Origin: an uncultured Neglectibacter sp.
Lineage (GTDB): Bacteria; Bacillota; Clostridia; Oscillospirales; Acutalibacteraceae
DNA length: 64,000 nucleotides
Direction of reading: 5' to 3'
Assembly: GCA_946554335.1 (NCBI GenBank)
Contig: CAMNSA010000014.1
Span: 1-64,000, forward strand
Positions 4,588 to 40,828 of this stretch are shown piece after piece (within the stretch, counting starts at the first letter, position 1; every line of letters begins with the position of its first letter). The position numbers and the translations under genes are program-made. The notes beneath the pieces were generated by a model. It had not been told where the DNA came from, ran no database searches, and worked only from the letters and a program-made list of their open reading frames with translations.

Positions 4588-5784
4588 TTAAGCTTCGCTG
4601 TCAGGGGGAATATAATAAGGAGAATCCTCCTCATAGATAAAACGGCTGATATGTTCCGAGGCGGCCTCAATATCATAAAGGTACACCCAGCGGCCGTCCT
4701 CGTTGTAGTCTCCGTAGGCGTCCTCCTCTTCCCCGGGAATAGAAAGAGTCTCCGTGGAGAAGTCCTGAAGCAGGAAGGGCGTCATTCCCATAATATCCGA
4801 AAAATCCAGAGAGGTCTCGCACAGGGGCATCAGCTCATGGATCAGCCCCGGATATTCCAGCTTGCTTTTTCCCTTGAGCTGCTGGATGAGGCCCTTTAAT
4901 ACCTCCTGCTGACGGCCGGCGCGCATATCGTCGCCCCCCTCCAGATGACGGATTCGGGCATAGGCCACCGCCTGGTTGCCGTTTAAAAGCACCTCGCCGT
5001 CCTCATAGAGATAATCAGACTCTAAAATCTCGGCGTCATAGGATTCCGCCTGCTGCATGGCGAGGTTATTGTTGATCTCATTCATTTCCTCATAGGAGAT
5101 GGTAACCCTGGTGCCCCCGAAGGCGTCCACGATCTTCGCCATCTGGATGAAGTTCACCGTCACATAGTCCTCAATATCCAAACCGAAATTCTGGTTGAGG
5201 GTGTGAATGGCGAGCTCCGGGCCGCCATAGGCGTAGGCGTGGGTGATCTTATCGCTGCCATAGCCCTCGATCTCCACCTCGGAATCCCGCAGGACAGAGG
5301 TCATTTTCAGCTTGCCACGCTTGCTGTCCACAGACAGGACAATGAGTGCGTCGGAGCGGCCCTCGTTTTCATCCTCTCTGGCGTCCAGACCGAACAGCGC
5401 GATATTTTTCACGCCCCCCGCTTCGCTTTTCTGGATCCCCAGCTGATCCTTGTTGATCTGCCGGAAGGTAAGGCCCTTCAAAAGGTAGCCGTACACAAAA
5501 AAGACGCCCGCGCCGATGAGAAGCAGCACCAGCACCAAAGCGGCCACAGCGGGCTTTTTGGACTTCTCCCGGTACTTCTTCTGCTCGTTTCTGTGCTTTC
5601 TCTCCGCGGCCCGGGAGGAATAGCTGGAGATGTCCTCAAAAGTGTCTCTTCTCGGTGCTTGCCCCTGCACCCTGCTTCTGGAAGAGGAACCGCGTCTTGC
5701 CGGTTCTTCATAATAGTAATTGTCGTAAAGCGGTTCTCGCCGGGGACGCTCCCCACGGGAGCCGCGCGTATTTCTCTGCGCCAT
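4588..5784 (-). CDS. LytR-CpsA-Psr (LCP) family cell-wall polymer ligase
   Basis: 398 residues: an Arg/Tyr-rich cytoplasmic tail (1-77), one membrane helix (about 78-102) and an extracellular LCP domain (from about 125). Catalytic-type motifs are visible: the RSDALIVLSVD strand, SVLRDS with the conserved Arg-Asp pair, and NQNFGLDIEDYV. LCP proteins move undecaprenyl-linked glycopolymers onto peptidoglycan. GGAGG precedes the ATG. It is a close paralogue of the neighbour at 5951. The tail is unusually long and basic. Confidence 0.9.
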   Translation of the reverse strand: MAQRNTRGSRGERPRREPLYDNYYYEEPARRGSSSRSRVQGQAPRRDTFEDISSYSSRAAERKHRNEQKKYREKSKKPAVAALVLVLLLIGAGVFFVYGYLLKGLTFRQINKDQLGIQKSEAGGVKNIALFGLDAREDENEGRSDALIVLSVDSKRGKLKMTSVLRDSEVEIEGYGSDKITHAYAYGGPELAIHTLNQNFGLDIEDYVTVNFIQMAKIVDAFGGTRVTISYEEMNEINNNLAMQQAESYDAEILESDYLYEDGEVLLNGNQAVAYARIRHLEGGDDMRAGRQQEVLKGLIQQLKGKSKLEYPGLIHELMPLCETSLDFSDIMGMTPFLLQDFSTETLSIPGEEEDAYGDYNEDGRWVYLYDIEAASEHISRFIYEEDSPYYIPPDSEA

Positions 5785-5950
5785 ATTAAACCTCCGAAAT
5801 TCCGTGCCAGTACACGGTTTCTTTTTTGCCTTCCGACACAGGCGCTGTCATCTCGCCTGCCCGCGCCGGGAAGCATTCCGGACGGCCTCCTCATTCTTTC
5901 CCTGAAATAACCCCTTGTTTCAAAGCCGGTAAAACTGCGCGGAGAAAAGG

Positions 5951-7653: not shown

Positions 7654-7835
7654 CAAAGCTCTTTTCCTGTCCTTTTTCGCAGGGTATCAGTTAAAGTATA
7701 CCCCATAAACGGTCTGATTTCAAGAAAAAATAAAAGCCGCCCTCGAAAAACAAAGGAAAATCCTTTGAAAATCCGTGAGGTTCTCCTCCTGTCCCGAAAG
7801 CGTCCCTTCTGTTCTCTCTCGTCTTTTGCAGACGC

Positions 7836-7867
7836 GAAAAGCGGGAGATCCAAAGAACCTCCCGCTT
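7836..7867 (-). terminator. Terminator of the repeat-containing noncoding transcript
   Basis: Nine-bp perfect stem AAGCGGGAG/CTCCCGCTT with an 11-base loop, followed on the minus strand by TTTTCG. No coding gene ends here, so it defines the 3' end of the ncRNA locus. Confidence 0.7.
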
Positions 7868-8577
7868 CGATAAGCAGTTACGATATTCTTTTAGTTGTGC
7901 ATTGGCTGAATCCTCTTTGAAAATGCTTTCGGTATAACTCTCCCGAAAGGAAATTCTTTTTTGACGTCTTTCAAACAGAAGACTTGATTACAGTCATAAA
8001 CTAGTTCATTGGCTGAATCCTCTCTTGGAACGCTTCCGGCCAAAGCCGAAAGAAGTCTCGTTACGGAGTGTCCTAAATCTATATAAAGACGAAAGACGCG
8101 ATTCAAGCGATCCTGATAGAATCTTACTGGTTCATTGGCTGAATCCTCTACTGAACTATCTCCGGCAAGCTCCGCCGAACCGGCTGCCCACCGAAAGAAG
8201 TTTTTTCCTCGAGTGTCTTACAAATGGAAGACCAGATTTCAGTCCATTGGCTTATCTTCCTTTTCCCGGCCTTCAGCGCTTTCTCTGGTCCGCATGATCT
8301 ACCCGCTCGTCTTCAGACGGCTTACGCTTTTCTAAGCGTCATAATTCGCGGCTTGAAGTCACTGGGCCGTAATCATCGAAATCGTGGGAATCTCCTGCTG
8401 CATAGGCAACACTTCCCTTCTCAAAATCAGCTTCCTTTTTCAGAAAGCCAAGGTTTCCGCAGCGGTCTGCTGCAACATATTATGGTACACCGGACCCACC
8501 GCCTTTCCAAAAAGTATCAGTTTCTGGCTTTTCTTCCCGGCTTCCTGCCGGCCACTGAAACTAACCTTTCCTGTTCT
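7838..8577 (-). ncRNA. Candidate large structured noncoding RNA (about 740 nt)
   Basis: Both ends are defined: an exact TTGACA-17-TATAAT promoter at 8584-8612 and a terminator at 7836-7867. No frame has a convincing start and length, and stops occur in all minus frames. The 5' part folds into TTAGTTTC...GAAACTGA enclosing CCGGC...GCCGG; mid-molecule hairpins include ACGCTT/AAGCGT and CGTCT/AGACG. The 3' half is a tandem array of related units (see 7901-8261). Stem CTTTCGG/CCGAAAG of one unit becomes CTTTCGGC/GCCGGAAG in the next, with pairing kept. It does not match RNase P, tmRNA, SRP RNA or a riboswitch I know. Function unknown. Confidence 0.6.
7901..8261 (-). repeat. Tandem ~107-126 nt units ending in AGAGGATTCAGCCAAT
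   Basis: The 16-mer AGAGGATTCAGCCAAT (minus sense) occurs identically at 7901-7916, 8008-8023 and 8134-8149, with a degenerate copy at 8246-8261. Spacings are 107, 126 and 112 bp. Between copies the sequence diverges, but each unit keeps a GTCTT..AAGAC-like hairpin, a TTTCGG-containing stem and, in two units, GACACTC. That pattern of fixed single strand plus varied stems suggests selected RNA structure. Confidence 0.75.
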
Positions 8578-8583
8578 GGCTTT

Positions 8584-8612
8584 ATTATAAACGACCACTT
8601 TCAGTTTGTCAA
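8584..8612 (-). promoter_or_regulatory. Exact consensus sigma-A promoter of the ncRNA locus
   Basis: TTGACA (8607-8612) and TATAAT (8584-8589) separated by exactly 17 bp, on the minus strand. This is the strongest-looking promoter in the window and drives no recognisable protein gene. Confidence 0.85.
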
Positions 8613-8857: not shown

Positions 8858-9157
8858 ATGGATAACGAGTATGAAGCCGATCTTCTCACGCTCATTGACG
8901 ACGAGGGCAAAGAGCATGAATTTGAGATCATAGATGAGCTGGAAAACGACGACGGTCATTATATGGCGCTGGTCCCCACCCAGCAGGACGCCGACGAGAT
9001 CTCGTCCGAGGCGGAGACCTATTATATCTTCGAAGTCGTAGAGGAGGACGGTGAAGAGCTTTTGCAGGAAGTGGATGACGACACCCTTCTGGATAAGCTC
9101 TCCGATATCTTTGAAACCAGATTCAACGAGGCCTATTACGAAGAGGACGAAGAGTAA
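8858..9157 (+). CDS. DUF1292 domain protein
   Basis: 99 residues, extremely acidic (many Asp/Glu), matching the DUF1292 family of small Firmicutes proteins of unknown function (YrzB-like). In many clostridia this gene sits next to ruvX; here ruvX is about 5 kb away on the other strand. I chose ATG 8858 because AAAGGAG lies six bases upstream; a longer in-frame TTG at 8831 lacks a ribosome site. Monocistronic, with its own promoter. Confidence 0.85.
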   Translation: MDNEYEADLLTLIDDEGKEHEFEIIDELENDDGHYMALVPTQQDADEISSEAETYYIFEVVEEDGEELLQEVDDDTLLDKLSDIFETRFNEAYYEEDEE

Positions 9158-9254
9158 TTTTCCGGTTTCCGGCATGAGCCTTTCAGAAAAGGGGCATACT
9201 ATATCTGTCATGACCCTTCAATGAGATCTCCATCGTGAACGATCCATGAAGCCT

Positions 9255-9458
9255 TCGCCTGGCCGTACCGCGGACTGTGCACATATAACCCTACACTCAA
9301 ATAATCGGGAGCTCTGCTCCGTCTGTGGACTGCAGACCTCCCGGCCCGGCTTTACCGGCGCCGGAGGAAGGGAGCGCGAAGCAGATGGGAGGGCACCCAC
9401 CTGCGTCTTTCGTAGCAGGTTATTGAGATGCACATTACGGACGGCCGGGTTTTTTTTT
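9255..9458 (+). ncRNA. Candidate structured RNA with 6S-like architecture
   Basis: A ~200-nt region closed by a 9-bp stem (CCTGGCCGT 9259-9267 with ACGGCCGGG 9441-9449) followed directly by nine T. Moving inward: TGTGCA (9276) pairs with TGCACA (9429), CTCAA-TAA (9296) pairs with TTATTGAG (9419), and the 3' strand of the open region holds a small hairpin ACCTGC/GCAGGT (9399-9420). The tip holds CCTCC-GGC/GCC-GGAGG. A closed end, central bubble with a 3'-strand hairpin and irregular upper arm is the 6S RNA plan, but I cannot confirm the consensus. The 5' end may lie near 9208. Confidence 0.45.
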
Positions 9459-24122: not shown

Positions 24123-24187
24123 AGTTGGGCAGCAATGCTGCCCAACTCGAGAAGAACCCGGAGACACAAATGTGTCTCCGGGTTCTT
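24123..24187 (-). terminator. Two hairpins downstream of RNase P RNA
   Basis: A 17-bp perfect stem with a two-base gap (24152-24187, AAGAACCCGGAGACACA) lies immediately after rnpB, and an 11-bp stem AGTTGGGCAGC follows at 24123-24147. The first is placed as the rnpB terminator, although the T run is poor. Confidence 0.6.
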
Positions 24188-24188
24188 T

Positions 24189-24531
24189 GTGACCAGGTCT
24201 ATAAGCCGAGTTCTGTCTTAGACAGTCATCTATCTTGGCCTGCCGTTGCCAACAGGCTCACGCCACCTCCACAGAACGCGCAGGGCTACGCTTTATGTTC
24301 CTCCACGGTGTTGCTCCGAATAGGGTTTACAGGGCCATGAGGTCTCCCTCATGCCGGTGAGCTCTTACCTCGCCTTTCCATCCTTACCGGGAAACCCGGC
24401 GGTATCTCTCTGTTGCACTATCCCTGGGGTCGCCCCCGGCGGCGGTTAGCCGTTATTCTTGCCCTGGGGAGCTCGGACTTTCCTCAGACACAGGCTTTCG
24501 CCAGGTGCCCGCAACTGCCCGGCCTGCTCAC
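24189..24531 (-). ncRNA. rnpB: RNase P RNA (bacterial type A)
   Basis: The catalytic RNA of RNase P, which trims tRNA 5' ends. Read on the minus strand it shows the signature GAGGAAAGTCCGAGCTCC (CR-I), the GATAGTGCAACAGAGAGATA segment, the GGTAAGAGCTCACC region and the 3' GACAGAACTCGGCTTATAG. The ends are set by the P1 pairing GTGAGCAGGCC with GACCTGGTCAC. Length about 343 nt fits type A. Confidence 0.95.
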
Positions 24532-40079: not shown

Positions 40080-40511
40080 TCACACCCTGCTTTCAAAGTG
40101 CTTGCAAAGGGTAACGCTGACGCCCTTGCCCACTTTGGAGGTGACCCGCACACTGTCGCAGAAGCTCTGCATCACCGCAAAGCCCAGCCCGGCGCGTTCC
40201 TCCCCGCCGGTGGTATAAAGGGGCTCCATGGCCTTGGGAATATCCGGGATCCCGCAGCCCTTGTCCCGGACGCGTACCGTCACCTTGCCCCCTTCAAAGA
40301 TTTTCACCGTTATGTACACCGGTCCCAGCTCTTCTTTATAGCCGTGGACGATGGCGTTGGTCACTGCCTCGGAGACCGCCGTTTTCAGGTCGGTAAGCTC
40401 CCCGAGCGTGGGGTCCAGCTGAGAGAGAAAAGCGCTGACCGCGGCTCTCGCAAAGCCTTCATTTACCGAGTTGGAGGGAAATTTTATTTCCAGCTTATTG
40501 ATGGGCTTCAT
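40080..40511 (-). CDS. spoIIAB: Anti-sigma-F factor / protein kinase SpoIIAB
   Basis: 143 residues of the GHKL ATPase fold: N-box KTAVSEAVTNAIVHGY (about 44-59), G1 box VRDKGCGIPD (about 87-96) and G2 box ERAGLGFAVM (about 112-121). It holds SigF inactive and phosphorylates SpoIIAA. AAGGAGG lies upstream of ATG 40511, which shares its A with the spoIIAA stop (TAATG). Confidence 0.96.
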   Translation of the reverse strand: MKPINKLEIKFPSNSVNEGFARAAVSAFLSQLDPTLGELTDLKTAVSEAVTNAIVHGYKEELGPVYITVKIFEGGKVTVRVRDKGCGIPDIPKAMEPLYTTGGEERAGLGFAVMQSFCDSVRVTSKVGKGVSVTLCKHFESRV

Positions 40512-40828
40512 TATCCCGCCCTCCTTTCGATAGCGGCCACCCCAGACACGCCGGAAAGCTCCACCATTTTATTGAGATTCCCGGAAAGGCCGCAAAGCAC
40601 CACCCGCCCTCTCCAAAGCTGCAAAAGCCGCACTCGTCCCAGGATCAGGCCGATCCCGGAGCTGTCCATAAAGGGTACATTGGTAAAATCCAGCCTCAGA
40701 CAGTAGGGCTTTTTCCTTCTGGAATGGTCGTCGATCAATTCTCTTATCTCCCTGGCCGAGTGGTGATCGATCTCCCCGGCGAGCTTCGCCGTAAGGACTC
40801 CTTCCTCATAAAAAAACTGCACATCCAT
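40511..40828 (-). CDS. spoIIAA: Anti-anti-sigma factor SpoIIAA
   Basis: 105 residues, one STAS domain. The phosphorylated serine lies in FMDSSGIGLILGR (Ser56/57). In its unphosphorylated form it frees SigF by binding SpoIIAB. ATG 40828 overlaps AGCAGG; GTG 40822 is a possible alternative. First gene of the spoIIA operon, which in relatives is driven by sigma-H at the onset of sporulation; I could not fix that promoter. Confidence 0.93.
   Translation of the reverse strand: MDVQFFYEEGVLTAKLAGEIDHHSAREIRELIDDHSRRKKPYCLRLDFTNVPFMDSSGIGLILGRVRLLQLWRGRVVLCGLSGNLNKMVELSGVSGVAAIERRAG

Follow-up and report, generated by a model that had tools for sequence, protein, structure and literature searches.

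tmRNA, which carries a pseudoknot and a short ORF, engages ribosomes; dual-function RNAs such as RNAIII and SgrS combine a peptide with base pairing to mRNAs; and 6S RNA is a global regulator that binds RNA polymerase. Minigenes are a further known arrangement. Those described in PMC8708949 (axe-txe mg2, EHEC LEE1 and LEE4, and B. subtilis ycbK) are part of protein-gene leaders and influence the following gene in cis, and a strong Shine-Dalgarno sequence (SD) in front of a minigene is reported there to let ribosomes re-initiate without dissociating. Regarding the large structured RNAs, OLE is bound by bS21 and contains a mimic of the anti-SD (PMC12054373), and GOLLD has been pulled down with ribosomes (PMC12286853). 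VcdRP is another dual-function RNA (PMC8672173). Here we describe a putative RNA gene of about 740 nt that resembles each of these in some respect. It lies on the minus strand of a stretch of DNA of 64,000 nucleotides (the window) from the GTDB genus Acutalibacter, between a DUF1292 gene and, downstream, a GtrA gene (PF04138), and is present in one copy in the window's genome, G000.

The locus and its relatives

A sequence-only reading of the window had proposed a highly expressed, selected, structured noncoding RNA with an exact consensus promoter, a terminator and tandem units. The promoter is as described (Table 1), and promoters of this type were found in 23 of 26 oriented intervals of the genus (the window and 25 loci), being absent in L081, L089 and L090. 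The RNA would start about 7 nt after the -10 box, and high expression may be expected, judging only from the promoter. At the other end, the proposed terminator does form a hairpin; its U-tract is limited to CUUUUC, and this hairpin, here called terminator-like, is missing from the list given by a stricter terminator scan. Twenty-two of the 23 promoter-bearing loci are full-length (L100 runs off its contig). In all 22, a terminator-like hairpin, counted as the first one beyond 300 nt, lies about 400-1200 nt downstream of the promoter and precedes the next gene.

Table 1. Positions of the RNA locus, its elements and its neighbours in the window
Feature	Position	Strand	Details
Promoter TTGACA-17-TATAAT	8584..8612	-	12/12 consensus bases; sigma-A-type
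RNA (putative), ~740 nt	7836..8577	-	bounded by promoter and terminator-like hairpin; locus conserved beside DUF1292; no Rfam match
Block C SD region GGAAAGGCGGTGGGTCC	8492..8508	-	predicted SD duplex -11.9 kcal/mol, the strongest of the SDs found in this RNA; part of alignments A1 and A3
Block C short ORF VYHNMLQQTAAETLAF-stop	8440..8490	-	GUG start (8490), 16 codons; homologous site opens a 16-32-codon ORF in 40/40 RNAs
Hairpin inside the short ORF, loop AGACC	8457..8472	-	complementary to the SD-AUG region (RBS-ORF complementarity); pseudoknot helix in the covariation count
Domain D	8268..8368	-	closing helix GGCCCAGUG (8368-8360) with CGCUGAAGGCC (8278-8268); inner CCGC/GCGG helix; GCUU-AGAA-AAGC hairpin (8339-8324)
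Mini-ORF 1 (block E)	8239..8266	-	SD GGAAAAGGAAG, then AUG GAC UGA (M-D-stop); position conserved in the genus
Mini-ORF 2	8124..8150	-	AGAGGATTCAGCCA AUG AAC CAG UAA (M-N-Q-stop)
Mini-ORF 3	8001..8026	-	AGAGGATTCAGCCA AUG AAC UAG (M-N-stop)
Mini-ORF 4	7891..7919	-	AGAGGATTCAGCCA AUG CAC AAC UAA (M-H-N-stop)
Terminator-like hairpin, short U-tract	7834..7867	-	13-nt arms (7867-7839); terminator-like hairpin also in 21 other full-length genus loci
DUF1292 protein gene	8858..9157	+	divergent neighbour of the RNA; PF06949, 61.1 bits
6S RNA	9253..9455	+	recurrent second neighbour, behind DUF1292; RF00013, 48.6 bits

By DNA similarity, congeners share little with the window beyond the promoter region: matches occurred in 15 of 29 genomes (G000 counted), and those outside G000 all fell in the first 76 bases, except for one 33-nt stretch in G016. 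The repeat's exact 16-mer occurs in one of 300 family genomes, the window's own. Hence, we fetched the DUF1292 side of the relatives and recovered the family by gene order. DUF1292 relatives are present in 26 of the 29 genomes of the genus, and the named ones reached through the window's DUF1292 protein include Acutalibacter MAGs and Neglectibacter timonensis (8 loci). A conserved block at the 5' side, block C, was found in 23 of the 29 genomes; one of its loci, L105, was added by R1, a covariance model of one block built from 21 genus sequences, which match by construction (L105, L094, L115 and L117 are outside the build). L094 (G024) was too divergent and was excluded from both alignments. 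Block C was not found in G013, G015, G019, G021 and G022, G015 and G019 being represented by partial stretches only, and G001 is cut off. The window itself is a divergent member, which retains block C, domain D and block E and lacks both the GAAAACGG block, present in 20 of 22 genus RNAs, and the CCGGAAGUAG block.

The trio of 6S RNA, DUF1292 and this RNA was found in all seven same-family loci scanned, and 6S RNA in none of the ten other-family loci scanned. Six congener loci (L077, L078, L082, L083, L088 and L092) have an extra gene between the RNA and GtrA, presumably for an HD-domain protein, with no counterpart there in the window. Elsewhere in the window, a class A RNase P RNA lies at 24186-24530 on the minus strand (RF00010, 255.8 bits), and R1 gives a second, weak match at 40480-40534, also on the minus strand (12.8 bits, E 0.056), which is probably due to chance.

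Across the family, R1 matched 94 of 398 genomes at E<=0.01, many of them weakly. From 25 listed non-genus loci we picked 20 by eye, excluding L139, L142, L144, L147 and L149; the genome of L142, G182, does carry the short ORF. Two of the 20 (G341 and G122) were dropped, as the match sits at other genes. DUF1292 lies divergently beside the RNA in all 18 RNAs kept and is absent near the two dropped matches. Three loci in which the promoter pattern was not found (L154, L158 and L160) were taken to start 230 nt upstream of the match, and three in which no terminator was found (L155, L156 and L163) were given an end by hand.

A sequence-only model of 29 sequences, R2, matched 82 of 345 genomes of the order at E<=0.01, family members included. 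Among the 18 of 25 listed order loci that we read, 14 lie outside the family: eight with the short ORF (genomes G677 and G548 of family f26; G500, G537, G571, G719 and G724 of f13; G456 of f15), two unsure (G716 and G686) and four judged by eye to be false (G728, G659, G540 and G586), with the G728 match presumably being the start of rsmH. The complementarity of the ribosome binding site (RBS) treated below exceeds 90% of its own shuffles in six of the eight, with fractions of 0.79 and 0.82 in the f13 loci L177 and L183, and in one of the two unsure loci. G548 also keeps an M-Y-stop mini-ORF. DUF1292 stands beside the RNA in both f26 loci and was not found around the f13, f15 and f20 loci. A class-wide search with R2 gave matches in 13 of 391 genomes at E<=0.001, eight of them in the same order and five outside. 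Three of the latter open short frames (L213, 27 codons; L217, 16 codons; L214, 3 codons), with no promoter pattern within 350 nt in any of the three. Besides, a scan of viral_contigs with one exact block C pattern returned five stretches, each the start of a frame of at least 63 codons. The sequences thus far collected point to a family that is probably Oscillospirales-wide and patchy.

Reading frames inside the RNA

Block C reads GAAAGGCGGGUGAGUCCAAUGGAC, followed by a hairpin. Its SD reaches -11.0 kcal/mol or stronger in 17 of 22 genus RNAs and -7.5 to -9.5 kcal/mol in the remaining five. The canonical anti-SD, GGCTGGATCACCTCCTTT, was found in five of ten genomes asked; a pattern for a shorter anti-SD tail was not found in G000, where the 16S gene is perhaps not assembled. 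The start codon of the short ORF is ATG in 36, GTG in three (the window among them) and TTG in one of 40 RNAs. Its frame is open through codon 14 in 40/40, with the stop at codon 16-32, compared with 23 and 16 for the other frames, a count that is not independent because the script locating the site demanded 14-33 codons. In all 18 non-genus RNAs, it is located 22-24 nt into the match made by the model itself. The N-terminus of the peptide, M-x-x-E-x-Q, is kept in many members across genera and families. For the C-terminal half, by contrast, sister species use different frames of one and the same hairpin (CGSADSHSADK versus LAICGLTIRR), which leaves the larger part of the peptide without conservation. 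The short ORF shows a weak bias between codon positions (0.38, 0.28 and 0.49; 15 of 22 rows).

The region around the start codon can pair with the loop inside the ORF. This RBS-ORF complementarity is greater than in 90% of its own shuffles for 19 of 22 genus RNAs and 16 of 18 others (35/40 in total). When segments were matched with those of other members, mean pairing changed from -16.8 to -14.8 kcal/mol in the other genera and from -21.0 to -20.3 kcal/mol in the genus. As segments from different members pair nearly as well, most of the complementarity is shared consensus and a smaller part covaries. The block C hairpin together with the GUGAG/CUCAC pseudoknot has 88.4% of its cells paired, versus 31-51% when slid. 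Both sides have changed in 16 cells, where shuffles give 6.5; the count of additional pair types is not above shuffles (156 of 500 reach it). Six loci of other genera (L151, L152, L162, L164, L166 and L168) also have a recurrent stretch, GAGUCC-nAAnUAnnnG, that corresponds to the block C context without the AUG.

The repeat that had drawn attention to the locus was described as four copies, three of them identical. The three exact copies of AGAGGATTCAGCCAAT are there, at 8149-8134, 8023-8008 and 7916-7901 on the minus strand; the fourth, before the AUG at 8247, has the same layout and differs by more than three mismatches. These copies are the SDs and start codons of two- or three-codon ORFs (SD-CCAAUG-stop). 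At each of the four CCAAUG sites the frame closes after 2 or 3 codons, and GUG 8490 opens one of 16 codons, so the statement that the locus has no usable reading frame is wrong. Nor do the data support calling the RNA purely noncoding and the repeat an RNA motif: by its sequence the latter is a translation-start site with an early stop, and the block C short ORF is family-wide. A fifth CCN-AUG of the window, at 8403, opens 14 codons.

We then counted such sites in the 40 RNAs (22 of the genus and 18 of other genera), excluding those of block C. Of 63 CCN-AUG sites, 43 have at most four codons and 20 are longer, compared with 83 of 411 other AUGs with at most four codons (Fisher p 7e-14). Among the 60 unique CCN-AUG sites, a stop falls within four codons 42 times in frame, versus 8 and 15 times in the other frames. 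There are 32 distinct mini-ORFs, which use all three stop codons. Since relatedness inflates the p-value, we repeated the test outside the genus with stops within three codons and found 21 of 33 in frame versus 6 and 5 (Fisher p 1e-7 against other AUGs), or 16 of 26 versus 6 and 4 when L162 was removed. At least one mini-ORF of up to four codons is present in 30 of the 40 RNAs (16 of 22 in the genus, the window among them, and 14 of 18 others), and no CCN-AUG mini-ORF of that length in the other ten. Counting AUG mini-ORFs of 2-5 codons preceded by an SD, we obtained 40 at -5.0 kcal/mol versus a mean of 18.4 (maximum 28) in 40 dinucleotide shuffles, and 16 at -6.5 kcal/mol over all 40 RNAs versus a mean of 7.9 (maximum 12), again in 40 shuffles. 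Many mini-ORFs have a modest SD; of the four in the window, a single one reaches -6 kcal/mol.

Tandem arrangement, also part of the original description, applies to the window (four mini-ORFs) and a few relatives (six in G091, three in G215, two each in G056, G184 and G162); among the other 21 genus RNAs, 15 carry a single unit and six none. The richest array is that of L162 (G091), whose RNA spans about 5003-5792, with six CCN-AUG mini-ORFs of 2-4 codons after block C, most of them behind GAGUCC; an additional AUG UAC AUC UAA is not preceded by CC.

Helices and known RNA classes

In the genus, domain D has a GGCAC/GUGCC closing helix (P1), an inner helix (P2) and a GCUU-AAGC hairpin, with block E, GGAAAAGGAAnnUAnGCCAAUGUACUA, immediately 3'. 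The predicted fold of the window RNA agrees with these helices, the closing pair being GGCC/GGCC in the window. RNAalifold gave a weak consensus on the domain D alignment, so the structure was named by hand from row L079 and then counted, and it leans towards L079. Overall, 85.2% of cells are paired (31-44% when slid), and both-side changes affect 43 cells, compared with 16.3 in shuffles that, like those for block C, ignore relatedness. P1 is paired in 98.1% and P2 in 89.6% of cells (21 rows), and both sides have changed at 4 of 5 and 4 of 6 of their pairs, respectively; helix 3 reaches only 57%. The number of further pair types is not above shuffles (143 of 500 reach it). For the whole window RNA, the folding energy is not decisive (z -1.43; 2 of 20 shuffles as good). 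The stems between the repeat copies fold locally as the sequence-only reading had claimed, and two of the three do hardly better than shuffles (z -2.25, -0.07 and -0.71). Evidence for structure is weak within this one genome, and it is the comparison between genomes, with its covarying helices, that supports it. Together with block C in 23 of 29 genomes, the promoter and terminator-like hairpin in 22, and homologues in other genera and families, these helices bear out the view of a selected structured RNA.

The proposal that the RNA belongs to no recognised class also holds after covariance searches of the window and its relatives. Inside the RNA there was no Rfam 15 match at or above the gathering threshold in the window, in 20 loci (19 with the RNA) or in 17 loci of other genera and families; as full loci, the scans took in seven of the 18 non-genus RNAs and, apart from L098 and L099, those of the genus, and six loci were scanned permissively. 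RNase P, 6S RNA and a T-box were the only matches in the scanned stretches, none inside the RNA. The best sub-threshold match reached 32 of 47 bits, outside the RNA, and the best in the window 18.5 of 50 bits. The covariance models of ROOL, GOLLD and OLE gave no match in the same window and loci. A literature search, mostly outside subscription papers, gave nothing on this RNA among the matches listed. tmRNA was rejected as an identity, with no RF00023 or ARAGORN match in the window and a canonical tmRNA elsewhere in 22 of 29 genus genomes. In the other seven, which include G000 (99.39% complete), no tmRNA exceeded the Rfam cut-off, pointing to an assembly gap or a divergent tmRNA.

Possible roles and comparison with known systems

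Since the most conserved parts are ribosome landing sites and early stops, the RNA probably works by engaging ribosomes, and not by making protein. We infer the following course of transcription, translation, ribosome loading and gating. Each member would be transcribed from its strong sigma-A-type promoter. A strong SD and start codon would lead ribosomes into the 16-32-codon ORF, and the RBS could be closed by pairing with the loop inside it. The ORF stops soon after the hairpin (judged by eye, in the genus), and a translating ribosome would thus open the hairpin. Further 3', and in the genus directly behind the closing helix of domain D, ribosomes would load at starts whose ORFs end within four codons, terminate at once and perhaps re-initiate. 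Loaded in this way, the RNA would serve as a sink for ribosomes or initiator tRNA, or as a sensor whose fold reports the number of free ribosomes. A stand-alone structured RNA family of the Oscillospirales that engages ribosomes at mini-ORFs, as sink or sensor, is our preferred reading, and we see the chances for and against it as evenly balanced. The RNA is perhaps a translational counterpart of its 6S neighbour; the recurrent 6S neighbourhood at most suggests a shared global role. In a bolder form, which we put forward only tentatively, members throughout the order would be stand-alone RNA machines made of ribosome entry sites with built-in early stops, some in tandem, where ribosomes idle and re-initiate under the control of a pseudoknot, so as to store, meter or sense free ribosomes as 6S RNA does for RNA polymerase.

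One could argue that the peptide is the functional product and that the remainder of the RNA base-pairs with mRNAs. Such dual-function RNAs exist (VcdRP; PMC8672173), and the frame open in every RNA and the M-x-x-E-x-Q start shared across genera and families would fit one. However, the frame-shifted C-terminal half speaks against a conserved peptide and the mini-ORFs are left unexplained, which makes this reading rather unlikely. We give about the same small weight to a protective role, in which parked ribosomes would shield the RNA from nucleases and the function would lie with a partner of the structured domains. According to PMC8708949, ribosomes occupying the RBS of a minigene protect the LEE4 transcript, and the same is proposed for LEE1 and axe-txe. 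Protection, though, accounts neither for the complementarity of the block C RBS to its own loop nor for the placement of mini-ORFs directly behind the covarying helix P1 in the genus.

The remaining two readings do without translation. An RNA of the OLE, ROOL or GOLLD kind might meet ribosomes by structure alone, with SD-AUG-stop as a by-product. Its size and wide spread are in line with this, as are the anti-SD mimic and bS21 binding of OLE (PMC12054373) and the pull-down of GOLLD with ribosomes (PMC12286853). Yet no scanned stretch matched Rfam at the gathering score for such an RNA, sub-threshold matches were far below, and the frame dependence of the stops is not expected without translation; we regard this as improbable, more so than the two readings above. 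Finally, several copies contain AGAGGA or AAGGA, so GGA motifs might act as CsrA sites in a sponge of the CsrB/RsmZ type, and CsrA is present in 16 of 29 genus genomes. But eight of the 23 RNA-bearing genomes of the genus (G000, the window's own, and G004, G005, G006, G012, G018, G027 and G028) have no PF02599 match, and early in-frame stops would go unexplained. For lack of a CsrA match in these eight genomes, a CsrA sponge is very hard to credit.

Should ribosomes load on this RNA as in our preferred reading, gut Oscillospirales would possess a translational regulator of a new kind, and the question whether a 'noncoding' RNA can act through translation that yields no product becomes directly testable. 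The locus also illustrates that what is taken for a repeated RNA motif can turn out to be a minimal reading frame, below the size limit of gene finders and absent from Rfam.

Compared with known systems, the RNA shares a pseudoknot and a short ORF with tmRNA, but canonical tmRNA lies elsewhere in 22 of the 29 genus genomes. 6S RNA is its neighbour, but a separate gene and Rfam family. Like dual-function RNAs (RNAIII, VcdRP), it has one short ORF; unlike them, its peptide is hardly conserved past the first residues, and mini-ORFs are added. We know of no counterpart of the mini-ORFs in dual-function RNAs. OLE and this RNA are both large structured RNAs of Bacillota linked to SD-anti-SD pairing (for OLE, PMC12054373), with the difference that OLE carries an anti-SD mimic and this RNA, which has no Rfam OLE match, carries SDs with start codons. 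Among the RNA classes that our searches reached, none is made up of conserved translation starts followed by an early stop in frame. There are precedents for minigenes, for large ornate RNAs and for dual-function RNAs, but we know of no conserved RNA standing on its own that is organised around minigenes. The mini-ORFs have what defines a minigene (SD, start codon and in-frame stop after few codons), and SD, AUG and a stop after 2-6 codons are common to them and to bacterial minigenes. In contrast to these, the RNA that holds them has a promoter and a terminator-like hairpin of its own, covarying helices and up to six such units.
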